The notes below the pieces were generated by a model that worked only from the letters and a program-made list of their open reading frames with translations, had not been told where the DNA came from and did no database searches. A program made the position numbers and the translations under genes. Of a DNA stretch of 64,000 bases, positions 16,996-36,192 are shown piece after piece; the first letter of the stretch is position 1; each line of letters opens with the position of its first letter. Source of the DNA: Lentisphaera araneosa HTCC2155 (GTDB lineage: Bacteria > Verrucomicrobiota > Lentisphaeria > Lentisphaerales > Lentisphaeraceae). The stretch covers positions 186,001 to 250,000 of the forward strand of contig NZ_ABCK01000007.1 in the NCBI RefSeq assembly GCF_000170755.1, given 5' to 3'.

Positions 16996-18450
16996 TTAAC
17001 GACTGATGGGGAGCGCAATTCGTATTTGAGTACCTTGGTTCTCACCATTGGAGTGTATGGAGATTTGACCATGATGATAGGTGATAATTTCACGCACGAT
17101 GGCGAGACCGAGGCCTGAGCTTTTACGCCCATTATTGGGGCGTGGTAGAGAGTAGAAGCGATCAAAAATTTTATCTATCGCATAATCGGGGATGCCTTGT
17201 CCCGAGTCGGTTATAGTGAGTTCGAATTGGTGGGCATTTTTGGTGGCGCTGATCTCGATGATACTTTGTTCGGGAGAAAATTCGACCGCATTTTTGATAA
17301 GGTTATTGAGGGCGACTTGCAGTAAAAATTCATTAGCGGCAACAGGTGCTTTAGAAATGGTGTTGCGGTAGCGAAATTGATGCTGAGGATAACGCTCTCG
17401 ACTTTCCCTAAGGATATGTTGAGCTAAAGCACAAAGGTCCAAATTATTCATTTCCATGTTTTGAGCATGATTTTCGAGACGGCTCAAAAAGAGTATGTTC
17501 TCTATCATTTTATTCATGCGAGTCGTTTCTTTACGCAGGTTTGTACAGAGTTGAGCCGCTTGTTCGGGCGTGGCCTCGTCAAGAAGTTCGAGGGCACCAT
17601 GCATGGCGGCAAGAGGACTCTTGAGCTCATGGCTGAGCGTTTGCATATAGCTTTCCACATAGGCGGTACCATCGAGTTTTTTGAGCATTTCTTCCATGGT
17701 GTTGGCAAGGATTTTAATTTCACCATAGGGAGTGGAAGGTAGGAGGGGACGTTGGCCATTGCCGATTTCTTCGGCGTAATCAGTGAGGCTCTCAATGGGG
17801 CTAACAATGCGTCGGGTAAAGTAAAAGCATAAGAGGATTAAAAGAGCAAGAGTGAGAAAGGCGGTGCGGACAATTTTTTTGCGAGCCAGATTGAGGTAGA
17901 GGCTCAGGCGTTTGACGGGTTTAACGTAGGTGATCGTGCCAGCAATTGTTTGATTTTCATCATAGACAGGAAGACTGACGTGAAGCACTGAAGTGGAGGG
18001 GTCGTCTTTGTCTGAGCGCGTCGAGCGGGCGCCATAATCTCCAGCAAGAGCTAAAGTGACATTGCGCCAGTGATTATAGGATACGCCTTTTTCCTTGGGT
18101 GAGCCACTATGGTAAAGAATCATCCCGTCCTTATCAGTGAGGTAGATCTGGGTATCGCTCCCCCATTTTTCGATGGCATAGATTTGAGCCTTGGGGGTAT
18201 GATTTGGAGTGAGAGAATGTTGCTCAAATACTTGAGAGATTTTTTGTATGGCCATGGGGTCATCTTCATTGCGTGACACATAAATGAGTGCGCGCAGGGT
18301 AAAAACCTGATCATACATGAGCTCCTCGCTTGCTTCTAAATAATGACGTCGAGAATCACTATTCAGAGAGTCGGTGAAGAGGTAGATAGCTAGGGCAGAA
18401 ATGACGCCAAAAGTAAGAATGATTCGTTGCTTTATGGTGAGGCGAGTCAT
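16996..18450 (-). CDS. creC: Sensor histidine kinase CreC-like
   Basis: This 484-aa inner-membrane sensor has an N-terminal helix (about 10-28), a periplasmic domain of about 150 residues, a second helix (about 195-213) and a HAMP-like linker. The H-box YVESYMQTLSHELKSPLAA follows, close to the CreC signature. Downstream are N-box NNLIKNAVEFSP, G1 ITDSGQGIP, F-box FDRFYSL and G2 SSGLGLAIVREI, so the kinase core is intact. CreC with CreB controls creD and metabolic or envelope genes in proteobacteria. Its start overlaps the creB stop by 4 bp (in the corrected creB frame). The gene is intact even though creB is frameshifted. Confidence 0.9.
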   Translation of the reverse strand: MTRLTIKQRIILTFGVISALAIYLFTDSLNSDSRRHYLEASEELMYDQVFTLRALIYVSRNEDDPMAIQKISQVFEQHSLTPNHTPKAQIYAIEKWGSDTQIYLTDKDGMILYHSGSPKEKGVSYNHWRNVTLALAGDYGARSTRSDKDDPSTSVLHVSLPVYDENQTIAGTITYVKPVKRLSLYLNLARKKIVRTAFLTLALLILLCFYFTRRIVSPIESLTDYAEEIGNGQRPLLPSTPYGEIKILANTMEEMLKKLDGTAYVESYMQTLSHELKSPLAAMHGALELLDEATPEQAAQLCTNLRKETTRMNKMIENILFLSRLENHAQNMEMNNLDLCALAQHILRESRERYPQHQFRYRNTISKAPVAANEFLLQVALNNLIKNAVEFSPEQSIIEISATKNAHQFELTITDSGQGIPDYAIDKIFDRFYSLPRPNNGRKSSGLGLAIVREIITYHHGQISIHSNGENQGTQIRIALPISR

Positions 18451-19131
18451 TCAGGATCCTCAAGCGAGTAACCGAAGCCACGGTGGGTGATGATGAGGTC
18501 TTTGCCAATGGTTTTTTTGAGTTTGGCACGCAGGCTTTTGACGTGGGCATCGACAGTGCGTTCCATGGCGGAGTTGGGGTCTTGCCAAGCACGTTCTAAT
18601 AATTGACGACGGCTGAAAACACGACCAGGCTGAGATGCAAGAGCTTCGATTAAATGAAATTCGTGAGCGGATAAAGTGAGCTTTTTGGTCTTCGTAAGAA
18701 GCTGAGAAAGTATTTGAATCAACCTTTAATTTTCCTTCGGCTTGCTTGGGGCTCTCGATTTCGAATGAATTTTGCGTTCTGCGCAAAACACTCTTGATTC
18801 GAGCGGAGAGTTCACGAGGACTAAAGGGCTTGGTGACATAATCATCGGCACCGATCTCGAGACCGACAATGCGGTCGACTTCGTCAGAACGAGCAGTGAG
18901 CATGATGACGGGGATATTTTGCGATGCGCGCAATTTACGACAAAAATCAAAGCCATTTCCATCTGGTAGGCCAATGTCGAGAATGATGAGGTTAATCGTA
19001 TTTTCGGCTAAGTACTCATCAGCTTGAGCGAGTGTGGAGGCCCAACGGTGTTGAAAGCCTTCGAGGTCGAGTGCCATGCGAATATTATCGGCAATGGATG
19101 GTTCATCTTCAACAATGAGAATTTTTGGCAT
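18447..19131 (-). pseudogene. creB: Response regulator CreB-like, interrupted by a +1-type frameshift
   Basis: The first frame encodes a full receiver domain (KILIVEDE, LIILDIGLP with the phospho-acceptor Asp, VTKPFSPREL) and runs into nonsense after SYEDQK. The winged-helix DNA-binding domain (KLTLSAHEFHLIEALAS ... HRGFGYSLEDPE) is encoded in another frame. Removing one A from the run at 18682-18686 (TTTTT on the plus strand) joins EDQK to LTLSAHEF and gives a regulator of normal length whose stop overlaps creC by 4 bp. So the ancestral gene was intact. The lesion may be a real mutation or a base-calling error in the homopolymer. A TAGGAGG ribosome site precedes the start. Confidence 0.88.
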
Positions 19132-19168
19132 AATGGGGGGCCTCCTAGTTTAGAAAAAATACTGGTTT

Positions 19169-19202
19169 AAAAAAAATTACCAAGTTCAAGTTACTTGAAC
19201 TT
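19169..19202 (-). terminator. Probable intrinsic terminator between exosortase operon and creBC
   Basis: AAGTTCAAG (19182-19190) pairs with CTTGAACTT (19194-19202) around a 3-nt loop. On the minus strand this 9-bp stem is followed closely by a run of eight T residues (A run 19169-19176 on plus). It is AT-rich but well formed, and would end the creD-exosortase transcript and separate it from creB. Confidence 0.65.
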
Positions 19203-19326
19203 AATGAGTGCTTTGCATATTTTTATTCCGAAATCTCCCGTCCGCCTGGTCAAGGATTGGCAAATCCTTGCTAGGGGAGCTCGAGGGGAAGGATTCCTCT
19301 CGTGAACTTGCATGACTCCCCCACCT

Positions 19327-19836
19327 TTATTCCCCCTCCTTATTTTTTTGGATTTTCGTGATCGAGAGCCAGGGCCCACGGGTTTGTTTGAATAAGGCTT
19401 TCCAATACCAAGAGGAAGCATCGCTAATTGTTTTATGATCTTGGTCAATAATGATTTCAGATACGAGCAAGTGTTTGCCCTTCCACTCCGCATTAAATTG
19501 TGACCAAAGTCGAGAGCGAGAATCTTTGAAAAGGGGAAGGAAGCTGATTTTTGCGCCATTAGATTTGAGGCAGACCGAGGCAGAATGAAACTTCCGGCTG
19601 GGGCGAGTGACTTGACGTAGGATGTATTCATTTTCTCCATCGTGAAAGCGCGCGACTTTCCCAGGGAAATGTTTGAGAAAGACTTTTTCCTGCTCGCCCA
19701 TGGCTAAGGGCTGCAGTTTTTTTCCTTCGAGTTCTTGGGGCCAAGTGACATTTTCTACCGAGATTGCGGGTGCAGGCTTATGCAATACACTGAGCAGTGC
19801 AATAAAGATCGTCGCACTAAGATAGAGCTTTTGCAT
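19327..19836 (-). CDS. Small exported protein of the exosortase operon
   Basis: The ATG at 19836 is chosen because an AAGGATCT-like ribosome site precedes it and it begins a signal peptide (MQKLYLSATIFIALLSVLHKPAPA). The 169-aa product overlaps the exosortase end by 20 bp. The mature part is basic with several Trp residues, including SSWYWKALFKQTRGPW near the C-terminus. Its position and size recall EpsI-like exosortase accessory proteins (DUF3485), but similarity is too weak to name it. It is the last gene before the terminator. Confidence 0.65.
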   Translation of the reverse strand: MQKLYLSATIFIALLSVLHKPAPAISVENVTWPQELEGKKLQPLAMGEQEKVFLKHFPGKVARFHDGENEYILRQVTRPSRKFHSASVCLKSNGAKISFLPLFKDSRSRLWSQFNAEWKGKHLLVSEIIIDQDHKTISDASSWYWKALFKQTRGPWLSITKIQKNKEGE

Positions 19837-20593
19837 TTGAGATCCTTTTTTGAATGAGTAATAAGCTGAAAGCAAAGAGGGCAAAAACGAACAAACCCAC
19901 CGCATTATGAGTAAATTCGGGCAATTGCAAAGGAGTGTTTTCCAAATAAAACAGGGTGGTATTACGAATAACATTGGCGAGAAATATGACGCCGAAACCC
20001 ATGGTAAAAAACTTAAAGAACTGCAGCGTGCTGAGTTTTTCGTAAAGGGCAATGATACTGATCAACAATAAGCCCGCCCATAACATATTGATTCCACTAC
20101 AGGGGGCATCGACCACGGTTTGACGACCTTGCCATTCCAAAACAGTGCCGTGTGCATAGACATTAATACCACCAACTTTCAGTAAGATTGCAGAGGCTTG
20201 TGTGGCCAATAAGCGCAGGGGGTAACCAAAGAAGAACTGTAAACTCGACATGATGGGCAGGCTTAAAACTAAAAGAGAAAAGGATGGCCAAAACCAAGCT
20301 TTTTGAAAGCTCAAAGAAATGAATAAGTTAAGGTTGATGATGAGAATGAAAGCTAAGGCAATTGGTGGTAAGCCAGAGAACAGGGTGATGAGAGCGAGAA
20401 AGTTTAAAATCAGACTCCATTTGACTTGGTGAGCGGTAACTATCTCTAGTTTTTTTTCTTTTGAGATGAAAAGGATTAAGATGGCTAAGGCAAAGAGGCA
20501 GTGACCATCGCTTTCTTTGAAACGATAGAATAACCACGCTAAACTCGGCCAATTGGCGAGCAGGCAAAGGCCGATGGCGTGTGAGTACTTCAT
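19817..20593 (-). CDS. Exosortase (XrtN-like, probably dedicated to the VIT protein)
   Basis: This 258-aa polytopic membrane transpeptidase has about eight helices. The exosortase/archaeosortase catalytic triad is visible: Cys in VVDAPCSGINMLWAG, Arg in FLANVIRNTTLFY and His in EFTHNAVGLFVF. Exosortases cut PEP-CTERM-type tails and transfer the protein to a surface or lipid carrier. The gene directly upstream, overlapping by 4 bp, encodes a protein with just such a tail, so a one-enzyme/one-substrate pair is likely. This arrangement resembles the XrtN/VIT-domain systems; the subfamily is inferred from context only. Confidence 0.88.
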   Translation of the reverse strand: MKYSHAIGLCLLANWPSLAWLFYRFKESDGHCLFALAILILFISKEKKLEIVTAHQVKWSLILNFLALITLFSGLPPIALAFILIINLNLFISLSFQKAWFWPSFSLLVLSLPIMSSLQFFFGYPLRLLATQASAILLKVGGINVYAHGTVLEWQGRQTVVDAPCSGINMLWAGLLLISIIALYEKLSTLQFFKFFTMGFGVIFLANVIRNTTLFYLENTPLQLPEFTHNAVGLFVFALFAFSLLLIQKRISNAKALS

Positions 20594-23187
20594 GCGCGAG
20601 AGGGCTCCAATTTTTGCTTGTTCTTAAAGTGATAATAGAGGAGAAGTAGGCTGAGGATAATAATGAGCGCCCAAGTTTCGGGTTCAGGCACAGTGGGGAC
20701 AGTACTTGGATCCACCGCCTCGAGGCCTGCAGCATCGTATTGCGCTTGAGTTTCTAATACAACGGCGCCAGAAAGAGGGGTGACGAGTTGGTAGAGGGCG
20801 GCTTTATTCGCCATTTCATCATGGTCACTGCGATCTGAAAAATAGGACTGATTAACTTCATCTGAAACCATGAGTCGGCAGAGGTGAGAGTTCGCTTGGG
20901 GCGCTGTTTTTGGGTAAGACTCGGCATCGATAAATTGGCGCTCAAACACAGGCCATTCACTCGGGTTGAGCATTAATTCAAAGAGGGCAATGAGTTCAGC
21001 GCGATTACTCGCCGCTAAATTAGAGTAATGCGGTGAGCTTTTGATTTCTTGAATCACTTTATTGGCGCCTTCATTGAATTGGAAATTGCGAATGGGCACA
21101 AGGCCCCGACGTTTTTGGTATTGATTCAGTTTGCTACTTGAGCTGAGTTCATAGGGTTGCGGCCCGTGGAGCCAGATAATGGAGCTTTCCTGATCGGTGA
21201 GTTCGATAAGCTGATTGAGCGCATGCAAATTATCGTAGCCTCCCTCGAAACTATAATCGTCGAAATCTGAGTAGCGATTGACTTTAATGAGTTCATCTGA
21301 GGCAATATAGATTTGGAAATTGGGGTTCGTAATAAGTTTTTTAAGCGTGGGTGCCAGAGCTTGTTTTTCTTTGGCTAAGCTGGTCGAGCCATCAATGAGC
21401 ACGAAGAATTTTTGACGTTTAAAAGGTGAGCCATAGCGAATTTTTGAGGTGATTAATTTTTGCTCATCATGGAGGTCTCGGCCCCAGAACTCATTGAGAT
21501 CGGTGCGAGGCAATTCAGCACGAAAGCTTTGAGTCATATCTTGATGAAGCAGCGATCCACGTAGTGAATGACTTGTCGCGGACAGCTCAATTTTTAAGCT
21601 TTTGAGTGCGGGTTTCGCAAATTTTTGTTTAGATTCAAGCCAAATATCATGTTTTAAACTAGGACTTCGGTAGTAGTTGGAAGCGAGGATTTGTGGAGGA
21701 TAAAAGTAAGCCTTGCTTTTGTCTTGACTCAAAGGCATGGGGCTGCTTATACCAATACGAATTTTCATACGTTTTTGTGGAAGTACTGGGAAGCATTGAA
21801 CGAAGATACGGTTTTTTGCACTCCAAGTCACGAGCACGGGGTCACGATTTTGACGAACAATATTCTTGTAAGCACTTTTAACTTTGGAAGTTTTGGCAAA
21901 GGCGGCTTCGCGCTCTTCGCCATTCACCCAAAGGGTGAGGCGACTGACGACAGCTTGGTCGGGAAGGAGGATTTTCATGCGAGCTTCGCGATTTTGAAAT
22001 TGATGACTGTTTTCAAATTGCATGACCCATTCGCTATAGGCAATAGCTGGATCGGCATCGAGTTTACTATCGAATTGTGAACTGACAAGTAGGAGGTCTT
22101 CCTGCTTATCTCCAATTTCTTGGTCACCGATATCGGAGTCCCACGTCCAACGACGACGCGAGTTACGGTTAAGTTCTGAGTCAAAGATGGAATGAGTAGT
22201 GATTTTATGGGGAATTTTCCCCGTGACTCGAAAATAGAGTTGGTTGAGTTTTTTATGAGGAACGTGATTATTGATAGGGAGATCTCCGACCGCAGCCGTA
22301 CCAGAACCAAAGCCACGTTGAGATTTTTTGAGAATGTGTTGGCTCGAACCCCAAGAACGAATGAATGAAGCAGCCACGGCCTTTGATCTCGGATCACTGC
22401 CTTTTAGGTATTGACTAATTCCGTACTCAGTCAGAGCACTTGGCATTTTATTGAGAATTAATAATGAGAAAAGGATAATGACGGCCGTAAATGAATGCTT
22501 GAAACGAGATGCTTTGATTTCATGGGCCAGGTAATAACGTTTGCGCAAACAGAAGACACCCGAGAAGCCAAAGAGCGGGGAAAGGCTGAGGAAACCAGCG
22601 CCCATAAGCAGAATGCCGAGTGCACTCAGGGGTGAGAGTGGAGCAAAATAAAGGCAGTAATAAAATGAGGCGGCAATAGCGGCGTTTTGGAGAAGAAGTA
22701 TTTTTGGATTGTAGACTTTATTACGCTTTAGTTGGAAATAGGTGATTAAATTACTGAATGGTGGAAAGGCGCATAAAATGAGGTGAAGAAAGTCGGGAAG
22801 GGGATCAAAAAAACTTTGGGTAAATGGACGGTAGAGCAATTCTATGATGATGGCTGCAAAGGGAAGTAAAATGGTAAAGAACATGTAGTAAAAAGTCGTG
22901 CCAGAACTGAAGTCATTTGAACCGACCGTGTTTAATGCAGCTTTTTGTTCCGCGTACTTGAGCTCACCGGATTTGATGTCTAAGCTTAGGGCTTTGGGAC
23001 GCTGAACTTTCTCTAACGCGATTTCCAAATTGTTGAGTGTGATCTCAGATTCCCAACCCACAAGTAAATCATAGATAATGTTGCGCAATTCATCTTTGCG
23101 CTCTTGGTTGCGGCAGAGTTCGTGGGACTCAATAAATTGCTCGAGTCTTTCCTGGGCTTCAGGACTTAATGTTTGTGAATTTTTCAT
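20590..23187 (-). CDS. VIT/VWA-domain protein with PEP-CTERM-like sorting tail
   Basis: This 865-aa protein begins with a cytoplasmic helical region and about six membrane helices (roughly 100-260). It then has a VIT domain (EARMKILLPDQAVVSRLTLW ... RIFVQCFPVLPQKRMKI) and a short VWA-like strand KFFVLIDGSTSLAK. It ends with PEPETWALIIILSLLLLYYH followed by basic residues, a good PEP-CTERM tripartite tail (motif, helix, positive end). It is presumably the substrate of the exosortase gene that overlaps its stop. Multi-helix plus VIT plus sorting tail is the layout of XrtN-system VIT proteins. Function of the processed protein is unknown. Confidence 0.85.
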   Translation of the reverse strand: MKNSQTLSPEAQERLEQFIESHELCRNQERKDELRNIIYDLLVGWESEITLNNLEIALEKVQRPKALSLDIKSGELKYAEQKAALNTVGSNDFSSGTTFYYMFFTILLPFAAIIIELLYRPFTQSFFDPLPDFLHLILCAFPPFSNLITYFQLKRNKVYNPKILLLQNAAIAASFYYCLYFAPLSPLSALGILLMGAGFLSLSPLFGFSGVFCLRKRYYLAHEIKASRFKHSFTAVIILFSLLILNKMPSALTEYGISQYLKGSDPRSKAVAASFIRSWGSSQHILKKSQRGFGSGTAAVGDLPINNHVPHKKLNQLYFRVTGKIPHKITTHSIFDSELNRNSRRRWTWDSDIGDQEIGDKQEDLLLVSSQFDSKLDADPAIAYSEWVMQFENSHQFQNREARMKILLPDQAVVSRLTLWVNGEEREAAFAKTSKVKSAYKNIVRQNRDPVLVTWSAKNRIFVQCFPVLPQKRMKIRIGISSPMPLSQDKSKAYFYPPQILASNYYRSPSLKHDIWLESKQKFAKPALKSLKIELSATSHSLRGSLLHQDMTQSFRAELPRTDLNEFWGRDLHDEQKLITSKIRYGSPFKRQKFFVLIDGSTSLAKEKQALAPTLKKLITNPNFQIYIASDELIKVNRYSDFDDYSFEGGYDNLHALNQLIELTDQESSIIWLHGPQPYELSSSSKLNQYQKRRGLVPIRNFQFNEGANKVIQEIKSSPHYSNLAASNRAELIALFELMLNPSEWPVFERQFIDAESYPKTAPQANSHLCRLMVSDEVNQSYFSDRSDHDEMANKAALYQLVTPLSGAVVLETQAQYDAAGLEAVDPSTVPTVPEPETWALIIILSLLLLYYHFKNKQKLEPSRA

Positions 23188-24497
23188 GCTTCGACCTCCA
23201 CAGCTTTATAGGAATTGAGATCCCTTGTGAAGTACATGACAATGCCGAGGGTAATAATTAGGCCTAGACTTCCCATGAGCAGTGCATAATCTTCCAGTTG
23301 AATCGTCCCAAAGAGATAGGCATAGAGTCCTCCAGTCGTGAGCGTGATACTGAGAGCATTTTTCCAGCTTTTGAGCAAGCTTAAGGAGTAGAGACTAATC
23401 ATTAAGGTGGAAATGAGTGAGGCAATTAAATAAGCCAGATTAAAACCGAGGTGCTCTGAAACGGAGAGTAAAAGTAAGTAGAACATCATCGAGGCAAAAC
23501 CCACGAGGATATATTGCAAAGGATGAATATTGATTTGGCCGAGACGTTCGCAAATGAAGATGGCGGCAAAAGTAAAGCATAAGAAGAGTAGGGTATATTT
23601 GACTAGGCGGTGAACCTGACTATAACTCCCATTAAATTGAATGAGTCGCACACTGCAAAGTTCTGAACTCGGACTTTGTTCTTGGTCAAACCAAGAGCTG
23701 ACAAAAGTGCGTTGAAGATCGTGGACTTCCCATTGAGCATTAAAACCTGTATCATTGATTTGGTAAGTGTCAGGAAGGTACTTGCCTTCAAAACCGGGGT
23801 GGGGCCATGATGATTGGAGTTGCACGAGTGTTTTGCGGCCACTTGGACTCAAGCTGATTTCTTGGCTCCCATTAAATTGCAGCTTAGTTGACATGCTTAA
23901 TAAGACTTGCTCGGAATCCATTTGAATGGGGAAATGAAAACCCGAAGACAAGCCATTACTGATGGGGATGCCTTGAAGAGCGTTTATTTTTTCTTTGCCG
24001 ACCTCGAGTGTGATGCTTCGGCTCAGCCCCTTGAGGTCACTGATGCCAAAACTGAGAATCGCTTTTTCATAATCTAAGTTCTTGCTTGTGGGCAAGTCTT
24101 TTAAAGATCGCAAATCAAAAGAAAAATCGTAATTCATTTCTCCTTTGTAGACAATAGTTTTGAAGATAGACTTTTTGCGTTCTTCTGGCTTGAGTTGTCC
24201 CTGAATATTGAGTTCTTCGGGATGAAGGTGAATGAGTTTAGGGCCCGTATCTGAATTGAAAGGAATCGATAAGATGGGACCATAGATGTTTTGTGACCCG
24301 CCCCATTTCTGGTGGATCTGGTTGAGGACTTCTGCACTGCGTTGTTCACGCTCAGCAATGAGCTCCAAAATAAGTGATTTGGGAATGGTGAGCAGTGAAA
24401 TAATGATTGCGATCATCGCAATTTTTAGCATTAATGAATCTTTTAAGAAATTTAAGATTTTGGGGATAGGACTTGTGTACTTGTATTCATCACTCAT
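23184..24497 (-). CDS. creD: Inner membrane protein CreD
   Basis: This 437-aa reading starts at the ATG at 24497, which has GAGAGA upstream; an ATG at 24512 would add five residues but lacks a ribosome site. One helix lies near the N-terminus (about 25-47), followed by a large periplasmic domain. A cluster of about five or six helices begins with LVKYTLLFLCFTFAAIFICE. The order and the segment IHPLQYILVGFASMMFYLLLLSVSEHLGF are characteristic of CreD, an envelope-integrity protein controlled by CreBC. It is first in the exosortase operon, overlaps the VIT gene by 4 bp, and has cre-tag repeats upstream. Confidence 0.9.
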   Translation of the reverse strand: MSDEYKYTSPIPKILNFLKDSLMLKIAMIAIIISLLTIPKSLILELIAEREQRSAEVLNQIHQKWGGSQNIYGPILSIPFNSDTGPKLIHLHPEELNIQGQLKPEERKKSIFKTIVYKGEMNYDFSFDLRSLKDLPTSKNLDYEKAILSFGISDLKGLSRSITLEVGKEKINALQGIPISNGLSSGFHFPIQMDSEQVLLSMSTKLQFNGSQEISLSPSGRKTLVQLQSSWPHPGFEGKYLPDTYQINDTGFNAQWEVHDLQRTFVSSWFDQEQSPSSELCSVRLIQFNGSYSQVHRLVKYTLLFLCFTFAAIFICERLGQINIHPLQYILVGFASMMFYLLLLSVSEHLGFNLAYLIASLISTLMISLYSLSLLKSWKNALSITLTTGGLYAYLFGTIQLEDYALLMGSLGLIITLGIVMYFTRDLNSYKAVEVEA

Positions 24498-24512
24498 GGC
24501 TTTCTCTCTCAT

Positions 24513-24848
24513 TGTTGTTAGCTTAGGATTACTAAAAGGGAGAAATATGAAATTGATGTGAATCGTATGTGAAGTCTGTGAAAACTCGAGGAAATTTCAT
24601 AGTTCTATAAGAGGAGAGGATTACCACAGAATGCACCGAGAACACAGAGTTAAGCTTAGAAAGCTGAATTATAAATCTGTAAGTAGGACTTAGGGCTGGG
24701 ATGAATATCAGTTCTTAATCGACCTTACAGAGTCCTCACTAATTCTCCGTGAACTCAGTGTTCTCAGTAGTGTAAATATAATTCTTCTACTATCTTAAAA
24801 TCAAAATCATTGCTTAATAAGCTATCTACAATTAAATGAGAGAGAATT
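24513..24848. other. creD/ychJ divergent intergenic region with inverted 'cacagag' repeats
   Basis: Besides the cre-tag array this region holds an imperfect inverted pair: ACCACAGAATGCACCGAG-type sequence at 24623-24649 and its degenerate reverse complement at 24745-24773 (CTCCGTGAACTCAGTG...). Such accession-rich 'CACAGAG' segments recur in many bacterial genomes as intergenic repeats. No ORF was seen. Confidence 0.5.
24547..24582 (-). promoter_or_regulatory. CreB-binding 'cre tag' repeats upstream of creD
   Basis: Read on the minus strand, TTCAC occurs at 24582-24578, 24573-24569 and 24562-24558, with TTCAT at 24551-24547. The central pair is TTCAC-N6-TTCAC, exactly the published E. coli cre tag, and the 11-bp period continues to TTCAT. 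The array lies 35-85 bp before the creD start, where an activator would bind. Confidence 0.82.
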
Positions 24849-26949: not shown

Positions 26950-28329
26950 ATGAGTCCGGAAGAGCAATGGAAAAATTATTTTCGCAAACTACGTCGCCAA
27001 GTTAATCTTGGGTGGTTTTTACAAAGTTTTGAGCCCTTATTTTTAGGGTGCCTCATAGTGCTTACGGCAATAAATGTTTTCGTGAGAACCTATCGTGCAG
27101 ACTTGCTGAGTGAATCACCTTTTTTAATTGAAGGAGCCTTACTGGGACTGTTGATTTTTTCATTGCTGTATAGTTATCAAAAAGCCCATAAAAAGTTTTT
27201 TCGAGAAGAAGAAATTATTGTTCGTTATGATGAGAAGTATCATTATAATTGTCGCCTTCTTAAAGCCTATCAAGGAGATCAATCTTGGCCTGAACTTCCC
27301 GATCGTTTACCGGGAAATTTCATTCTTGAATGGAAGCGTAATAGTTCTTTTTTCTTGTTTGGGCTTCTACTAGTAGTGGCCTTGTATTGGGTGCCATTAA
27401 AAGCGGAAGCTCTTCCCGTAAAAGTACAAAAGCCGATTGCGTGGACTGAGCTAGAACAGCGCTTGGAAGAAATGAGTGAAGATGACAGTCTGGACAAAAA
27501 GCAAGTAGATGAGTTTAAAAAGAAACTCGAAGAACTTCAAAAACAAGATAAAAAAGACTGGTTTTCGCAAAGTAACCTCGAGGCCTCCAATTCTCTATTA
27601 GACACACTAAATGCGGCACATGATGAACATGGCGATAAGATGGATGAAGCGGCTCAAATGCTTCAAGAGATGGAGGCACTCAAAGACTTAATGACGGAAA
27701 TGGATGCTGGAAATTTGGAGCTGAGTGATGAAATGCGACAGAAATTACAGGATAAATTGAAAGAAATAGATGCTGATTGGCAGAAAAACATGAGTCAGAT
27801 GGCGGCCCAGTTACTGAAGATGAGACCTGAGCTCATGGAAAAATTAAAAAAGCTTAAGCCGGGTGATTATGCAAGAAGCAATGGAGCCCTAGATGAGAAA
27901 GACCTAGAAGAGTGTTTAAAGCGTTTGGAGAAGCAGGGTAAGTGTAAAAAGTGTGGTGGCAAAGGATGTGAAAAGGGAGAAGGTGAGGGAGAAGGTCAAT
28001 GTGAAAACGGTGGATGTAGTGCAGGCCTTGCTCTTCTTAACGGCGGAGCTGGAGTCAGTCGTGGAGGAGGTCCCGGAGGAGAAATTTTTCGAGATAGAGA
28101 GTCTGATAAGCACAATACTGAAATTGAGCTTGTTCAAGGAGAGCAAAGTGCAATGGAAGGTTCAACTCTACTAGGAACAAGTAAAGCTGAGCACGAACTA
28201 GATAAAAATAAGTATAAATCTGGCCAGCTAAGTGATGGCACAAAGCATACGGGCCAAGGTGGTGAAGCCGTGTGGAAAGAACATTTATTACCAGAGGAAC
28301 AAAAACTGTTGAGGAGTATCAAACCATGA
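26950..28329 (+). CDS. Membrane-anchored coiled-coil protein heading the MoxR/VWA operon
   Basis: This 459-aa protein has helices at about 25-45, 60-77 and 135-155, then a long Glu/Lys-rich predicted coiled coil (about 170-310). A Cys/Gly cluster (CKKCGGKGCEKGEGEGEGQC ending in CENGGC) follows at about 336-360, before a Gly-rich tail. The coiled coil resembles the DUF4175-like or methanol-dehydrogenase-region membrane proteins near moxR genes, but no named family is certain. The CxxC-type cluster may bind zinc. It overlaps moxR by 4 bp and is likely the first gene of the operon; GAGAGCTGAGG upstream provides a ribosome site. Confidence 0.75.
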   Translation: MSPEEQWKNYFRKLRRQVNLGWFLQSFEPLFLGCLIVLTAINVFVRTYRADLLSESPFLIEGALLGLLIFSLLYSYQKAHKKFFREEEIIVRYDEKYHYNCRLLKAYQGDQSWPELPDRLPGNFILEWKRNSSFFLFGLLLVVALYWVPLKAEALPVKVQKPIAWTELEQRLEEMSEDDSLDKKQVDEFKKKLEELQKQDKKDWFSQSNLEASNSLLDTLNAAHDEHGDKMDEAAQMLQEMEALKDLMTEMDAGNLELSDEMRQKLQDKLKEIDADWQKNMSQMAAQLLKMRPELMEKLKKLKPGDYARSNGALDEKDLEECLKRLEKQGKCKKCGGKGCEKGEGEGEGQCENGGCSAGLALLNGGAGVSRGGGPGGEIFRDRESDKHNTEIELVQGEQSAMEGSTLLGTSKAEHELDKNKYKSGQLSDGTKHTGQGGEAVWKEHLLPEEQKLLRSIKP

Positions 28330-29339
28330 GTGAATTTTTAAAGAGTGAAGAAGCTGCATATGTTGCGGAGACCGCAAATAAATTAAAGACTTGTTTGAAT
28401 CAGGTTTTATTTGGTCAAGAAGAGTTGGTGGACTTGGTGTGTACGGGGCTCTTTGCAAGAGGCCACCTATTATTAGAGGGCTTGCCGGGCTTGGGTAAAA
28501 CGGAACTCATTAAAGGTTTGTCGAAGGCCTTGGGCTTAGATTTTAAACGTATTCAGTTTACTCCGGACTTATTGCCTGGGGACATTAGTGGGAACCCACT
28601 GATTCAGGAAAGAGATGGGGAAAAAGAATTTGTCTTTCAAGCAGGACCTATTTTCGGAAATTTGATTCTTGCGGATGAGATTAACCGAGCGTCACCTAAA
28701 ACGCAATCAGCGATGTTGGAGGCTATGCAAGAAAAGAGTGTCACTGTAGCGGGGCAGAGTCATGAGCTGCCCGATCCCTTTTTTGTTTTGGCGACTCAGA
28801 ATCCAATTGAACTTGAAGGGACTTACGCTTTGCCAGAGGCTCAGCTTGACCGGTTTTTGTTTAAATTGGATGTCCATCATGCACCGGCGGATGTTCTAGA
28901 ACGCATTGTCTTATCTCGTGAGCTTGGAGAAAGCCCCAAAGTTGAGCAAGTATTAAGTCGTGATGAACTACAAAAGATGATTTCCTTGGTGAAAAAAGTT
29001 CATATTCCTCAACAGGTGGCGCAAATGATTGCCCAGTTGGTTAATTCGACTCAAGCAGGACAGTCGGAGCTCAGTGAACACATTAAGTTTGGCGCCGGAC
29101 CAAGAGCGGCGATAGCCCTCGCAGCGGCGTGTAAAGCAAGGGCCTTGATTCAGGGACGGGTTCATACTGGTTTCGAAGATGTACGCGATTTAGCTTTGCC
29201 GGTCTTGAGGCATAGAATTATCCTGGATTATCGGGCTAGAATTGCGGGTCAGACTTCAGATTCAATTGTCAAAGGGCTTTTGGCGGAGCTCAAAATTATA
29301 GATAAGCCAGTACCGGCAACAGTGAAGGAAGAAAGTTAA
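28326..29339 (+). CDS. MoxR-family AAA+ ATPase
   Basis: The start is set at the ATG at 28326, which overlaps the previous stop as ATGA; an upstream in-frame start is less plausible. The 337-aa ATPase shows Walker A GLPGLGKTELIKGL, FTPDLLPGDISGNPL, Walker B LILADEINRASPKTQSAMLEAMQE and the sensor segment VLATQNPIELEGTYALPEAQLDRF, all characteristic of MoxR. MoxR proteins act as chaperones with VWA/DUF58 partners in envelope maturation and stress tolerance; those partners follow in this operon. Confidence 0.95.
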   Translation: MSEFLKSEEAAYVAETANKLKTCLNQVLFGQEELVDLVCTGLFARGHLLLEGLPGLGKTELIKGLSKALGLDFKRIQFTPDLLPGDISGNPLIQERDGEKEFVFQAGPIFGNLILADEINRASPKTQSAMLEAMQEKSVTVAGQSHELPDPFFVLATQNPIELEGTYALPEAQLDRFLFKLDVHHAPADVLERIVLSRELGESPKVEQVLSRDELQKMISLVKKVHIPQQVAQMIAQLVNSTQAGQSELSEHIKFGAGPRAAIALAAACKARALIQGRVHTGFEDVRDLALPVLRHRIILDYRARIAGQTSDSIVKGLLAELKIIDKPVPATVKEES

Positions 29340-31009
29340 TGCGTTTTTTAGTCCTTTTCTTTTGTCTAAGCTCTTATGTCTTTGGTCAGGGCTTTCAGAC
29401 CTATAGCACTGAAATAGGATCGGGAATACAAATTTCTTATCGAACACTTTTTCAATCCGCCTCATTAGATCGTCCTGGGGCGCGTGTCCCGATGCAAGTT
29501 AAGATCAGTAATAAGACGGATGAAACACTTAGTTGGGGTTTTAAAGCTTATGATGGGTGGGGGAATATTGCGGACTCTGAGTTCAATACGAGTTTTACTG
29601 TAGAGTCTAATGCCGTACGAACTTTCACTTTAAATCTCCCTTATAATAACATGGATGACTACCATACATTTTACTCGCCATCCTTTAAAATTAGTGGTCC
29701 GGGGGTTGATGTTTTTTCTAATATTCGACCTTTTGGTGAGCAAATGACGTCGGGTAAAATGTGTACTCAGAAGGCCTATAAAAAAATTCAATTATATTCA
29801 GAAAAAGAACGCAAAGGAAAAAAGAGCCAGTCATCTGGATCAAGAGCTTATATGCTCGATTACGAGTATACGTATTTTGAGATTCAGAATTTGAGCGTTA
29901 ATTGGCAATCTTACTCAGGTATAAGTGAAATTATGATGACTGCCGCAGAATTTCAGTCGCTGCAGGAAGAAATAAAATCAGCTTTGCGGGATTGGGTAGT
30001 GAGTGGTGGTTTTTTGATTTTGGTTGACCCGGCCAACGACTTAGCTCGTATCAAATCTCAGAGCTATTTTCATAAGCAAGAAACTCCAGGCTTAGGAGCG
30101 GTACGCTTTTTGGATAAGGGGAAAAGACCGGACTCCTTGAAAAGTGGGAAGCGTCGATTGGCAGAGAATTTTTTTAATTTAGAAAAAAAGAATTTTGTCA
30201 AAGAGATTTCAGAGCCGAAGGCAAGTTTTATTTTTTTCACCATCCTACTTATTGTGTTTCTCGTTTTACTTATTCCGGTCAATTTCCTTGTCTTTACCAA
30301 GAAGAATCGTTTAAAGCTTTTGGTGACGACCCCCTTGATTTCTCTGGGAGCGAGTATTGTCTTTTTCATTGTTATCATATTGAGCGATGGATTTGGAGGC
30401 ACGGGTGTAAAAAGTACTTTGTTATACTTATGTCCAGAGTTGAAGCGATGCAGTATTTATCAGTCACAGGTTTCTAGAACGGGTATTATGACTAGCAAAA
30501 ATTTTGATATTCAGAACGATTTACTTATCGATGCTTATTCACTGACTCGTGAACGCTGGGATGATAGTAGTTACCCAATGAAAGCAAAAATAGTTTTTAA
30601 TGACACAAGTGTTGGCGGAGATCTTTTCAATAGCCGAACGAGACGCTTTGTAGATATACGGCATGTCAAATCTACACAGGCCGCAGTGGAACTCATAGCT
30701 GGTGATAAGATCCAATTACGTTCTTCGTTTCAGTCAACCATCAAAAAAATCTACGTCAAAAATGCGGATAATAAAATCTGGATGGCTGAGAATCTAGTCC
30801 CTGGAGAAGCGGTGACGGCTAAAGAAATCAGTGTCATTGATGATAGTGAAGTTATAGAGAAATTACAGAGTTTGATGAAAAATGAGTCCTTCGGCTTTCT
30901 TGCCGTCCTTAGTGAAGCAGGCGAATTTGATATACCGACGCATAATTCAATTGATTGGCAGGAACACAGGGTCTATGCCGCTGGGATCCTAAAGGAGGTG
31001 ACGCAATGA
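29339..31009 (+). CDS. Exported membrane protein of the MoxR operon
   Basis: This 556-aa protein has a signal peptide (MRFLVLFFCLSSYVFG) and an extracytoplasmic beta-rich domain with several aromatic strands. A conserved-looking ALRDWVVSGGFLILVDP segment near residue 210 resembles the GATase-like domains of VWA-operon proteins. Two helices follow (about 297-317 and 330-352), then a second soluble domain. I do not recognise a named family. Start and previous stop share one base (TAATG), and it overlaps the ABC ATPase gene by 4 bp, so its product probably works with the exporter and MoxR complex. Confidence 0.7.
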   Translation: MRFLVLFFCLSSYVFGQGFQTYSTEIGSGIQISYRTLFQSASLDRPGARVPMQVKISNKTDETLSWGFKAYDGWGNIADSEFNTSFTVESNAVRTFTLNLPYNNMDDYHTFYSPSFKISGPGVDVFSNIRPFGEQMTSGKMCTQKAYKKIQLYSEKERKGKKSQSSGSRAYMLDYEYTYFEIQNLSVNWQSYSGISEIMMTAAEFQSLQEEIKSALRDWVVSGGFLILVDPANDLARIKSQSYFHKQETPGLGAVRFLDKGKRPDSLKSGKRRLAENFFNLEKKNFVKEISEPKASFIFFTILLIVFLVLLIPVNFLVFTKKNRLKLLVTTPLISLGASIVFFIVIILSDGFGGTGVKSTLLYLCPELKRCSIYQSQVSRTGIMTSKNFDIQNDLLIDAYSLTRERWDDSSYPMKAKIVFNDTSVGGDLFNSRTRRFVDIRHVKSTQAAVELIAGDKIQLRSSFQSTIKKIYVKNADNKIWMAENLVPGEAVTAKEISVIDDSEVIEKLQSLMKNESFGFLAVLSEAGEFDIPTHNSIDWQEHRVYAAGILKEVTQ

Positions 31010-31965
31010 GTCAAGTGATGATTTCTGTGCGAGGTCTCAAGCGAAGCTTTGGGAAATTGGAAGCAGTCAAAGATGTATCGTTCGATATTCAGCGCGGACA
31101 AGTCGTGGGGTTTATTGGTGCGAATGGTGCAGGGAAGACGACGACCATGCGTATGATTGCCACCCTTGAGACTCCTGATGCTGGAGAGGTACATATATGC
31201 GGGGAAGATGCCATAGATGATCCCAATGCCGTTCGATCTAAGATTGGTTGGGTGCCTGATGAATTTGGGCGCTATCAAAATATGACAATTTATGAGTACC
31301 TAGATTTTTTTGCTAGAGCTTTTGATTATCGGGATCAAGAAAGGCTTAACCGCATTCAGGAAGTGATGGATTTTACTGGAGTGACGGATCTGAAAGATCG
31401 TTTTATTGATAAGCTCTCCAAAGGGCAGGGGCAGCGAGTATGCCTAGGGCGAGCCTTATTGCATGACCCAGAAGTCTTACTCATGGATGAGCCTGCTGCG
31501 GGTTTGGATCCTAAAGCCCGAATGGAGCTTAAGAGCCTTATCCGAATTTTAGCGGAAGAGGGGAAAACGATTTTCATTTCTTCACATATTTTATCGGAGC
31601 TCTCCGAGATATGCGATACAATGATTTTTTTGGAGCAAGGTCAGGTCTTGCATCATGGGGGAGCCGAAGAACTGAAGCGAGGAGCCAAGGAGGGAGTTTG
31701 CATCAAAGTGAAGGTTTTAAATGATTCTAAGGTACTGGAGGAATGGGTTGAAATGAACCCGGGTGTCCGCCTCTTAGATTTAAATAACAAGGGGGGGCGG
31801 CTCATTTTTGATGAAGGTTCAGATGAACTTGTTGCTGAGACATTAAAACGAATGATCAATGAAGGACTTCAGGTCATAGAATTTAACCGAGAGGAAAAAA
31901 CACTTGAATCAGCCTTTGTGGACTTGCTGAATCAAGCTGAAGATAAGGAGCTGTTGACACCATGA
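31006..31965 (+). CDS. ABC-2 type exporter ATPase
   Basis: This 319-aa ATPase starts at the ATG at 31006, preceded by AAGGAGG and overlapping the previous stop. Walker A is GANGAGKTTTMRM, signature LSKGQGQRVCLGRALLHDP, Walker B VLLMDEPAAGLDPKA, with His switch ISSHILSELSEIC. Such ATPases (CcmA/NatA type) pair with ABC-2 permeases, here encoded next. ABC exporters of this kind are often found in MoxR/DUF58 or gliding-type operons; the cargo is unknown. The C-terminal 90 residues form the usual extra domain of exporter ATPases. Confidence 0.92.
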   Translation: MSQVMISVRGLKRSFGKLEAVKDVSFDIQRGQVVGFIGANGAGKTTTMRMIATLETPDAGEVHICGEDAIDDPNAVRSKIGWVPDEFGRYQNMTIYEYLDFFARAFDYRDQERLNRIQEVMDFTGVTDLKDRFIDKLSKGQGQRVCLGRALLHDPEVLLMDEPAAGLDPKARMELKSLIRILAEEGKTIFISSHILSELSEICDTMIFLEQGQVLHHGGAEELKRGAKEGVCIKVKVLNDSKVLEEWVEMNPGVRLLDLNNKGGRLIFDEGSDELVAETLKRMINEGLQVIEFNREEKTLESAFVDLLNQAEDKELLTP

Positions 31966-33584
31966 TAAGAGAGATGATCAAAAACCCTAATCCCATCTTG
32001 TATAAGGAACTAGTCCAAGGCATGAGGGCAAAAGCCTTTATTGGTATTTTTATTATCACACAAATTGTTATGGTTGTAGCAACGATGGCAATTGTAGGCT
32101 CCGAAGGAGGTTCTTCTAATCGCAGTGAAGAGTTTACGGCTATTTTCTGGGGAGCCATTGCGATTCCCTTTGTTATTTTTCAACCCCTACTGGCGATCGA
32201 AAGTATTAACTCAGAAGTTAAGCTAAAAACCCTTGAGATGCTTTACCTAAGCCGTTTGTCCGCAAGGCGGATTATTTTGGGCAAGTTCTATTCCCACATG
32301 TTACAGACCTTAATGATTGCGTGTACTATTTTACCCTATGTTGTTCTGCGTTATTTTGCCGGTGGTGTCAACCTCTTGATTGAGTGTAGTACTTTTGTAT
32401 CCATCGTTTTAATTTCGGCCTTGGGAACTGCTTTGAGTGTAAGTACCAGTGCTTTCTCCGTTCGAAATCCTCGGTCTCATCGAGCTCGTATTTTAATACT
32501 GTTTATTGTCTTTGTCTTTGGTTCTACTACTGGCTTGGGAGGCTTTACCGCTTTCATGCGTTTTGGAGGAGGAGGGGGAGTCAATTGGATGGATTTTGCG
32601 ACATTTATTCTAATGATGCCCTTTGTAATTTATCAGGTGCTTTCTCTTGGTATGAGCCAAGTGGCACCAAACTCCGAGAATAATTTATTTTTAAAGAGGA
32701 TGAACTGTTTTGCGGTTTTATTGATTTATCTTATCTGCAGATACTTTTGTGATAGCGTATTACCACTGTTTCCCGTAATGTTTTGCTTTTTAATGTCGGC
32801 TCTTGAGGGCGTGTTTAGCGGCGATGCCAATTTTCGTAGTAGCTATGTACCTGTTAAAAAATATTCTCGTATAGGACTTTTGGTGGCACCCAATCGTTAT
32901 GCCTACTTTAATTGGTTTAATTTTGCGGTGTTGATTTCAGTTTTATTGATGATTCTTGAAATTGCTAATGATGATCTTGGCGGCAGAGAGAAAGGCATGC
33001 TCATTGTTGTGCCTTTGATAGTGACCTTGTGTTATCTTGTGCAGCTACAGCTCGCGCAAAAAGAAGTTTGTTCTAGAGTCAACAATTTTTTTGTCATTGG
33101 TTTCGTACCTTTCTTACTCTTTTTGGGGATAGCTTTCAATGATTCCTTGGATAATGTTTTACACAATGATGCCTATGAAATTTTTACCATTTGCTATATT
33201 TTTTATGCCAATATTATGATCTCCTATGGTTTAGCGATACAAATTTCTCGCTGGAAAAAAGAGAAGCTCAATACAATACATGTCGTGATGGCTACCGCAG
33301 GCTTAGTTATAGTAGGAACTATAACGATGATTTTAAAATCGGTGCTTATCCGTCGTTGGGAAGATTTTCCTGCGCTCTTTCCAATTGAACTCTTCCCGGT
33401 CATGTTGGATAATAAGGGCGTGGAAGGTATGGCACTGGCTTCGATAATACATTTACAGTTATTCTTAAGTCTTTTGGCTTTGCATTTTATGTCTTCTGAA
33501 TCAGCCCAGAAATTCTTTCAATTGAGTGCTAAAAAGAAAGAATCGAATCAAGAGAACGATCAAGTCCTTGTCGAAGAAGCTTAA
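31962..33584 (+). CDS. ABC-2 type permease
   Basis: This 540-aa protein has about twelve hydrophobic segments and no large soluble domain except a Glu-rich tail (SAKKKESNQENDQVLVEEA). The N-terminal NPILYKELVQGMRAKAF is the typical opening of ABC-2 permease proteins, followed by a helix and the segment LEMLYLSRLSARRIILGKFYSHML that likely couples to the ATPase. It overlaps the ATPase gene by 4 bp and shares one base with the DUF58 gene downstream. It forms the membrane part of the exporter. Confidence 0.85.
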   Translation: MIREMIKNPNPILYKELVQGMRAKAFIGIFIITQIVMVVATMAIVGSEGGSSNRSEEFTAIFWGAIAIPFVIFQPLLAIESINSEVKLKTLEMLYLSRLSARRIILGKFYSHMLQTLMIACTILPYVVLRYFAGGVNLLIECSTFVSIVLISALGTALSVSTSAFSVRNPRSHRARILILFIVFVFGSTTGLGGFTAFMRFGGGGGVNWMDFATFILMMPFVIYQVLSLGMSQVAPNSENNLFLKRMNCFAVLLIYLICRYFCDSVLPLFPVMFCFLMSALEGVFSGDANFRSSYVPVKKYSRIGLLVAPNRYAYFNWFNFAVLISVLLMILEIANDDLGGREKGMLIVVPLIVTLCYLVQLQLAQKEVCSRVNNFFVIGFVPFLLFLGIAFNDSLDNVLHNDAYEIFTICYIFYANIMISYGLAIQISRWKKEKLNTIHVVMATAGLVIVGTITMILKSVLIRRWEDFPALFPIELFPVMLDNKGVEGMALASIIHLQLFLSLLALHFMSSESAQKFFQLSAKKKESNQENDQVLVEEA

Positions 33585-34459
33585 TGATTTACCCAATGAA
33601 AGAGAATCTCGCTGCCATAGCTGAGGCGGCGCATGTTTTAAGCGAACGCTTTAGTTTGCCTTTTAAAAAGCGGAATTGGAGTGGGCAAGGTGGCAATATG
33701 CGGGGGAAGTCAGCAGGTAACTCGATAGACTTTCGCGAACACCGCGAATATCAATTTGGGGATGATCCGAGGCATATTAACTGGCAGGCTTATGCACGAA
33801 GTGGTGATTATATCATTAAGCTGTATGAAGAGGAAGTTAGCCCTGTAGTGGATATACTGATAGATCTTTCTAATTCAATGATTCTTAGCGCGGATAAATT
33901 ATTTCTAAGTCAATTGTTATTGGGTTTTGCGATGAAAAGCTGTGAGAAACATGGTGCATCGTATAAAGTGTGGGGCTTGCAGGGTGATCAAACTAGAATG
34001 TATAGCAGGGAGGAATGTGAATCCGGAATGCTTCCATTTGAGGGGCAGAGCCCCAACTTAAGTGATTCCTTGGAGAAAGTAGAATTGCGCCGCGGTTCCC
34101 TCACGCTCCTCATTTCTGATCTTCTTTATCCCCAGGATCCCATAGAAGTGTTCAAGTCACTCCAACGAGGTGGCAACCGTCTCTTGATTTATGCTCCCGG
34201 AGATCTAGAAGAATTTGCTCCGGATTGGAATGGGGATATTGACTTTATTGATGTAGAGCAAGGTGGCCTAAAACCCGCATTTATCGATGAAGAATGCCTC
34301 CAAGATTATCATAGAGCTTATGAGCAGCATTTTCAGCTTTGGCGTGAAATGAGCCGAAAAAATGCAGCCGGAATGGAGTGCTTTTTGAGCAACACGAGTT
34401 TAAGTCGGCAATTCGAAGGTCAGCCTTTGGCTAATGCATCTGTGGAGCTTTGTGTATGA
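33584..34459 (+). CDS. DUF58 domain protein
   Basis: This 291-aa protein carries the DUF58 core, with GSAGNSIDFREHREY-like pattern (KSAGNSIDFREHREYQFGDDPRHINWQAYARSGDYIIKLYEEE), which is diagnostic. It is followed by a VWA-like fold opening VDILIDLSNSM, with Asp-x-Ser-x-Ser as in a metal-binding MIDAS. DUF58 proteins are partners of MoxR ATPases. It starts at the ATG at 33584, where the upstream stop and this start share one base, and overlaps the next gene by 4 bp. Confidence 0.93.
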   Translation: MIYPMKENLAAIAEAAHVLSERFSLPFKKRNWSGQGGNMRGKSAGNSIDFREHREYQFGDDPRHINWQAYARSGDYIIKLYEEEVSPVVDILIDLSNSMILSADKLFLSQLLLGFAMKSCEKHGASYKVWGLQGDQTRMYSREECESGMLPFEGQSPNLSDSLEKVELRRGSLTLLISDLLYPQDPIEVFKSLQRGGNRLLIYAPGDLEEFAPDWNGDIDFIDVEQGGLKPAFIDEECLQDYHRAYEQHFQLWREMSRKNAAGMECFLSNTSLSRQFEGQPLANASVELCV

Positions 34460-36192
34460 ATTGGCTCAATCCCCTAGGTTTATTAGCTTTGTTAAGTATT
34501 CCCATTATCATTTATATTCACATGCTGCAACGGAAGTCAAAAAAACGACGTGTAAGTACGCTATTTTTGCTTAATAGTGAAAAAATAGAAAAGAAAGCTG
34601 GAAGTCGTTTAGAGAAGCTCCGCAACTCAAAACTCCTGTGGTTGAACTTGTTAGTGGCCGTACTCATGACACTGCTGCTTTTGCAGTTACGAAAAGTACA
34701 AGAACAAAAGGTTTTGAAAGTCGTAGTTGTCGTAGATGCTAGCGCTTCGATGTCAGCTTTTTGGGAGAAAGGTTCAAAAGACTTAGCAAATGAGCTGACA
34801 AAATTAGCGGGAAAAACTAAATATATTGATATAAAAATCATCAGCTCATCAATTGATGAGGCAAGTATTTATTCGGGTGCTCTTGTGGGAGAGGCTTCAG
34901 CAGCTTTGGCGTCATTTTCTCCTTCTAGGAGTGGTCATGATTTAGGGCCCGCCCTAAGACGGGCCAGTTCTTTACTCGATGATAAAGGCATGCTGATTCT
35001 TTGCTCAGATAGGCCACATGACTTATCAGAGGACGTGATGCAATACCTGATTGGCGAAGCTATTCCAAATATAGGCTTTACTGGTTTTCAGGCACAAGCA
35101 AATGGCAAATGGCAAGCCGTTATTAAGAATCATGGACGACAAGCGGCACAAGTGAAATGGGCTGTGGGCATTCCGGGGAATGAAAAACTTGTCGAGCAAA
35201 GCGTGTCACTCCAGGCAGGAGAGTTACGCCAGTTGAGAGGGGAGTTTCCGCCTACAAATGACAAAATGATCCTGTCTTTACCTGAGGATCGTTTCGCTCC
35301 TGATAATCGTCTGTATGCAGCACGCCCCTTAAGCAAAAAAATGAATCTCGAGATTAAGGGCTTTGATGATAAAAATGAATTACAGCTCTTGGGGATTTTA
35401 AATCGTTTTGACAGAGTCTCCTTTAAAGATACCCCAGCTAATTTTGCCATCGCACAATTAAGTAAGCTTGATGACCTGGGAACGCAAGCTGGCTTTTACT
35501 TTCTACCTGGGCCTTATGAATGGGGAGAAGAAAATTTGACGGCTTTTAATTCTCCTATGATTGAAGGACTCAATTGGCAGGGGATTCCCTTCGCTCTTGC
35601 ACCCAAGAGTGCCATTCCACAGGGCTTCTATCCACTGATAAAATCGGGTAAAAATGATTTACTGCTCATGAGAGAGACGGCTTTAGGGCCACAGTTCATT
35701 TGTTGTTTTAACCTTAATGATCCAGCTGTCATCAAATCCCCTGCAATGATTGTTCTCATGTATCGGGCCATTCAAAAAGCTCGCGAATTTCACTTGGCTT
35801 ATAATCGTAAAAATTTTGAGAGTGATAATGAGTTTTATGACTATTCTTTAGCGAGGAAAAAGTTGAAAGTCAGTGGTGTGACAAAGCCAGGAGTGGGTCT
35901 ATTTAGAACGGCGGAGAAAAGTGGTTTTTTCTCTATACTTATTGAGGATGGAGAAAAGCAGAAGCTAATGATGGAAGGGGGTGTTTTTTATGCCGATGCC
36001 GCAGAGGGTGATTTTCTTATGTCGGAAAGTCGAAATGATATAGATCTGGAGAAAGCGGAAATTGTCACCATATGGCAGGAGCGAAGTTTTTTACAGAGTT
36101 TTTGGATCTTGCTTCTTATTCTAATACTTATCTATGGGTGGTACGTTTTTGATAAGCGGCAGGGTATGATTCAAAAGGCAGGAAAAAGATGA
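34456..36192 (+). CDS. BatA-like membrane protein with VWA domain
   Basis: The start is taken as the ATG at 34456, overlapping the DUF58 stop as ATGA. The 578-aa protein begins with a BatA N-terminal domain (LNPLGLLALLSIPIIIYIHMLQRKSKKRRVSTLFLL), a second helix (about 62-80) and a VWA opening KVVVVVDASASMSAFWEKGS with DxSxS. It ends with a membrane helix (SFWILLLILILIYGWYVF) and a short basic tail. It is likely an envelope complex component together with the next VWA protein. Confidence 0.85.
   Translation: MNWLNPLGLLALLSIPIIIYIHMLQRKSKKRRVSTLFLLNSEKIEKKAGSRLEKLRNSKLLWLNLLVAVLMTLLLLQLRKVQEQKVLKVVVVVDASASMSAFWEKGSKDLANELTKLAGKTKYIDIKIISSSIDEASIYSGALVGEASAALASFSPSRSGHDLGPALRRASSLLDDKGMLILCSDRPHDLSEDVMQYLIGEAIPNIGFTGFQAQANGKWQAVIKNHGRQAAQVKWAVGIPGNEKLVEQSVSLQAGELRQLRGEFPPTNDKMILSLPEDRFAPDNRLYAARPLSKKMNLEIKGFDDKNELQLLGILNRFDRVSFKDTPANFAIAQLSKLDDLGTQAGFYFLPGPYEWGEENLTAFNSPMIEGLNWQGIPFALAPKSAIPQGFYPLIKSGKNDLLLMRETALGPQFICCFNLNDPAVIKSPAMIVLMYRAIQKAREFHLAYNRKNFESDNEFYDYSLARKKLKVSGVTKPGVGLFRTAEKSGFFSILIEDGEKQKLMMEGGVFYADAAEGDFLMSESRNDIDLEKAEIVTIWQERSFLQSFWILLLILILIYGWYVFDKRQGMIQKAGKR

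Follow-up and report, generated by a model that had tools for sequence, protein, structure and literature searches.

Work on the two-component system CreBC and on CreD has been carried out mainly in a few gammaproteobacteria. TTCAC is published as the site of CreB and its counterpart BlrA (PMC4689548, PMC3660660), and the literature places the cre tag, TTCAC-N6-TTCAC, in gammaproteobacteria (PMC4689548, PMC3660660, PMC3962086). An exact copy of this tag lies ahead of creD and of VIT-domain and exosortase genes in a 64,000-nucleotide stretch (the window) of the Lentisphaera araneosa HTCC2155 genome. This raises the question of whether CreB recognition extends beyond the proteobacteria, as the initial annotation proposed, and whether exosortase modules are among the targets of CreB. 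In a literature search that covered few subscription papers, no paper turned up that treats CreBC alongside exosortases or describes a verrucomicrobial cre tag.

The array upstream of creD and the genes behind it

On the minus strand, the sequence from 24582 to 24547, ahead of creD, is TTCAC-AGAC-TTCAC-ATACGA-TTCAC-ATCAAT-TTCAT. The spacers are N4, N6 and N6; boxes 2 to 4 follow an 11-bp period, the additional TTCAC lies four bases past them, and the coordinates and spacing first reported for this array are borne out by direct reading. The array lies 50-85 bp ahead of the creD start codon, which was placed at ATG 24497 (MSDEY) by comparison with relatives, the longest open reading frame beginning at 24512. 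The window thus carries both the core of the cre/blr tag (TTCACnnnnnnTTCAC), the target of E. coli CreB and Aeromonas BlrA, and its position upstream of creD, and here too creBC lies in the locus. The candidate -10 element (Table 1) is the identical hexamer in the identical place in two sister genomes, G001 and G002. An imperfect palindrome of 171 bp occupies 24620-24790, between the array and ychJ; a full copy of it occurs nowhere else in the genome, and the element is not a dispersed repeat.

Table 1. Predicted promoter elements and genes of the creD operon, with positions in the window.
Feature	Position	Strand	Remarks
CreB box 1 (predicted), TTCAC	24578..24582	-	9 bp before box 2; register common to G001, G002, G003, G005
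CreB box 2 (predicted), TTCAC	24569..24573	-	
CreB box 3 (predicted), TTCAC	24558..24562	-	forms with box 2 an exact copy of the published cre tag, TTCAC-N6-TTCAC
CreB box 4 (predicted), TTCAT	24547..24551	-	last box of the array
Candidate -10 element, TTTAGT	24531..24536	-	begins at +15, counted from the first base of box 4
creD	23184..24497	-	NF008712, 422 bits (cut-off 275); PF06123
VIT-domain protein, XrtN-system-like	20590..23187	-	PF08487; TIGR04477, 152 bits (below cut-off 250); overlaps creD
Exosortase, XrtQ-like	19817..20593	-	PF09721; NF012182, 149 bits (below cut-off 270); overlaps VIT gene
Exosortase accessory protein	19327..19836	-	start ATG 19836; NF033770 positions 286-452
creB, split by frameshift	18447..19131	-	single-base frameshift near A5 run
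creC sensor kinase	16996..18450	-	NF008312, 438 bits (above cut-off 356)

Behind the array, creD is followed on the minus strand by genes for the VIT-domain protein, the XrtQ-like exosortase and the accessory protein, and then by creB and creC. Overlaps of 4 to 20 bases join creD to the VIT gene, the VIT gene to the exosortase gene, the exosortase gene to the accessory gene and creB to creC, and the sole gap in the series is the 195 bp (19132-19326) between the accessory gene and creB. The whole operon is preserved in G001 and G002. The VIT-domain protein ends in a PEP-CTERM-like tail, VPEPETWALIIILSLLLLYYHFKNK, and would be sorted by its own exosortase. Both proteins score below the curated cut-offs for the XrtN-system VIT protein and for exosortase Q, respectively, and the exosortase is therefore named XrtQ-like only; the match of the accessory protein is to the C-terminal portion of exosortase T. 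An element of the CCTGGTCAAGG...CTCGAGGGG type, at 19190-19330 between the genes for the accessory protein and CreB, looks like a dispersed repeat and resembles stretches upstream of creD in the two sister genomes (L024, L027).

A single VIT-domain target encoded beside its own sorting enzyme is likewise found in the XrtN/VIT and MSEP-CTERM single-target exosortase systems and in the proteobacterial dedicated sortase system (TIGR03785/03787/03788), the models of which also include a dedicated two-component pair. In contrast to these, the enzyme here is an exosortase that resembles XrtQ but scores under the curated subfamily cut-offs, and the role of the two-component system falls to CreBC, for which a DNA site is defined.

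As sequenced, creB of the window is interrupted by a single-base frameshift at a run of five A, at about 18681-18690, and CreB may for this reason be non-functional in the source strain. In G001 and G002 creB is one open frame, and the CreB proteins of these two genomes and of a further relative, G005, pass the curated CreB cut-off (NF008296). With the gene in two frames here and intact in the sister species, the promoter might be a relic, functional in those species and unregulated in this strain. We regard this as unlikely, as the four boxes fit the pattern without a mismatch, the C-terminal DNA-binding domain can still be read uninterrupted in one frame, and an indel at an A5 run in a draft of 81 contigs may be either a real mutation or, plausibly, a sequencing error.

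Conservation of the array and its association with CreC

One copy of TTCAC-N6-TTCAC was seen in the window against 0.16 expected per shuffled window. Over the whole source genome (6,023,180 bases in 81 contigs), however, this two-box form is not enriched, with 18 matches, mostly inside genes, against 24 for the reversed control; the corresponding figures are 25 and 16 in G002, and 25 and 12 in G001. Being at chance frequency in the source genome, the two-box form is weak evidence alone, and its genome-wide count was dropped from the argument. A site conserved between the source genome and G002 (L002/L167) proved to lie inside a coding gene and was likewise rejected.

The full four-box pattern (spacers 4, 6 and 6) behaves differently from the two-box form, and of the initial concern that the motif might be frequent at random only the two-box part stands. 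The source genome, G001 and G002 each have a single mismatch-free copy, located at creD in every case, and G003 and G005 have copies with one mismatch, located at creD or its leading gene. All five CreC-bearing family members examined, drawn from three genera, share the box register 0, 9, 20, 31, with spacers that have diverged. As creBC and creD are on different contigs in G003, this conservation is not an operon effect. That the two boxes of the window match the tag by chance, as their background frequency in the genome would allow, is scarcely credible given the uniqueness of the four-box pattern, the kept register and a fixed distance to the -10 element (see below).

Arrays of this kind accompany CreC. 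At 62 CreC loci from Verrucomicrobiota, E. coli and, with one locus each, Spirochaetes, Fibrobacteres and Desulfuromonadales, 57 three-box arrays were found against 0-2 in Markov shuffles, a count in which loci within one family are not independent; with permuted boxes the median count was 0 once shifted versions of the repeat itself were set aside. An array is present at 22 of 24 creD loci with an adjacent CreC but at 3 of 86 without one (Fisher p 8e-18, with the same dependence within families). One of the two exceptions with CreC is E. coli, where creD is preceded by TTCAC-N6-TTCAC-N5-TTCAA, the third box being at N5, and CATAGT begins 15 nt after the start of that box. Among 60 relatives, six have CreC and 18 have CreD, and no array is present at the creD loci, 13 in number, that come from class relatives lacking CreC. 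Many CreC loci have no array at the threshold used, and none was found in G241, which has creD-creB-creC.

Outside Verrucomicrobiota, arrays were found in metagenome-assembled genomes of Spirochaetes (four boxes), Fibrobacteria (five boxes) and Desulfuromonadales. The arrays differ from the cre/blr tag in this distribution, in having usually 3-5 boxes, with the first box at 9 bp in Lentisphaeraceae, and in the inclusion of VIT-exosortase operons downstream. On the protein side, the recognition helix RTxDxHxK[T/S]xRAK is nearly invariant, its R, T, D, H, K and R being the same in all 58 CreB sequences compared, which include E. coli CreB and the C-terminal piece from the window. As judged by these sequence comparisons, the TTCAC boxes before creD are very probably a binding site of CreB conserved far outside the proteobacteria, in agreement with the initial annotation.

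Promoter geometry and the predicted action of CreB

In an alignment of 40 distinct arrays on their last box, with positions counted from its start, 89 percent had Y at +15, 80 percent had A at +16 and 95 percent had T at +20. The hexamer YAnnnT begins at exactly +15 in 28 of the 40 arrays, as against 0-4 at each other offset from 5 to 39. TTTAGT at +15 in the window has four of the six bases of TATAAT and departs from strict YAnnnT, as do G001 and G002. Across the arrays, the boxes stand at a fixed short distance before the -10 element, as in class II promoters of the PhoB type, and this constant distance suggests that the array replaces the -35 element in class II activation. Pho boxes are 11-bp direct repeats, and in PhoB class II promoters they likewise end just upstream of -10; here, in contrast, the box is TTCAY rather than the pho-box core, and the predicted regulator is CreB.

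The shared 11-bp geometry, together with PhoB being the second-best family model for the Lentisphaeraceae CreB proteins, could indicate that another OmpR/PhoB-type regulator, such as PhoB, reads the array and that CreBC is merely nearby. This is very improbable, since the arrays track CreC across genomes even at sites unlinked to creBC, creD loci without CreC have no arrays, and the site published for CreB/BlrA is TTCAC (PMC4689548, PMC3660660). Repression by CreB, to which the overlap of the boxes with the -35 position might point, is also improbable, as CreB activates creD in both E. coli and P. aeruginosa (PMC4689548), and a constant, one-sided distance to -10 would reflect the need of an activator to touch sigma.

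We therefore favour the reading, with a probability of about 0.85 and from sequence evidence, that the array serves as the CreB-dependent promoter for an operon creD-VIT protein-exosortase-accessory-creB-creC, the genes of which would be co-transcribed. Phosphorylated CreB would bind head-to-tail, each TTCAY box being taken by one winged helix and the boxes following one another at intervals of one helical turn (11 bp) along the same face of the DNA. The last boxes would cover the -35 region, the final one starting 15 nt before -10, and CreB would replace or assist the -35 contact with sigma in the manner of PhoB. In Lentisphaeraceae the first box is set 9 rather than 11 bp upstream, and it probably accommodates one more subunit. 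As creB and creC appear last in the operon, their own expression would be under positive autoregulation, but an internal promoter in the gap before creB could uncouple creBC from the array.

In one verrucomicrobial family (L249-L258), the creD start codon lies about 7 nt after the -10 element, and the creD mRNA is likely leaderless there. An orthologous TTCAC-N6-TTCAC with YAnnnT at +15 (L013:1501-1532 and L165; G000:C14:46007 in the source genome and G002:C2:685383) precedes a SIMPL-domain (PF04402) gene; it is a plausible promoter and possibly a second CreB target in Lentisphaera, and the two-box sites located in G001 do not include it. In G005, a second array (L063; G005:C204:28953-28988) has the same 9-11-11 register with one mismatch and CATAGT at +15, and precedes genes for a membrane protein of 162 aa and a protein resembling L,D-transpeptidases.

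VIT-exosortase operons and the history of CreBC

Among 388 genomes of the phylum, 58 of which have CreC, a search for three boxes followed by -10 gave 71 matches against 3 for the reversed control. Matches were found in 37 of the 58 CreC-positive genomes but in only 10 of the 330 without CreC (p 1e-27). Independently of the motif, the XrtQ-like exosortase occurs in 15 of the 388 genomes, every one of which has CreC (p 8e-14; 11 of 11 genera, p 2e-9). An array stands ahead of the VIT-exosortase operon in all of these except G234, in many cases far from creBC.

Arrays unlinked to creBC precede genes for VIT proteins and then exosortases in G173, G114, G259, G256, G240 and G103, and creD in G089 and G383. 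Near creBC, they lie before VIT-exosortase operons (G089, G120), before creBC-VIT-exosortase (G238), before a gene for an MSEP-CTERM VIT protein (G192) and before creD-VIT (G092, G248). Unlinked arrays also precede a gene pair encoding a secreted protein of ~560 aa without a Pfam or NCBIfam match and then a divergent CreD-like protein; this pair recurs behind arrays at L206, L208, L210, L217, L227, L346, L347, L351 and L352. The arrays found directly before VIT-exosortase operons even where creBC is elsewhere support the proposal that exosortase and VIT genes are CreB targets. Very probably, this is a conserved type of CreB promoter with a defined architecture, predicted to control VIT-exosortase modules in Verrucomicrobiota as well.

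In a tree of CreC, the root of which is arbitrary, the Lentisphaeraceae join another member of their own class inside Verrucomicrobiota, and E. coli is placed elsewhere. The tree gives no support to a recent transfer of creBC from proteobacteria and favours an old presence in the phylum. With Lentisphaera CreC nested in Verrucomicrobiota rather than beside E. coli, the suggestion that CreB recognition is ancient is likely correct, but an old horizontal transfer is also compatible with the tree. We suggest, tentatively and at less than even odds, that CreBC in Verrucomicrobiota and Lentisphaera may chiefly be a dedicated regulator of an envelope module consisting of CreD, a VIT (often VIT-VWA) surface protein and a private exosortase, that this would be the old function, and that enterobacterial CreBC-CreD would be a reduced remnant.

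The same DNA site and fixed architecture in other phyla define the CreB promoter much more sharply, as 3-5 boxes with -10 at 15 nt, and CreB regulons become predictable from a simple pattern. As far as the searched literature goes, this is the first regulator-to-promoter prediction for single-target VIT-exosortase systems, which it links to CreD.

Other genes also stand behind promoters of this type. One lies before a MoxR ATPase operon in G336 (L367, G336:C15), and a similar MoxR operon, at 26950-36192 of the window, adjoins the cre operon. In two genomes of one family, three boxes with -10 lie directly before YceI-family genes (L355, L377).
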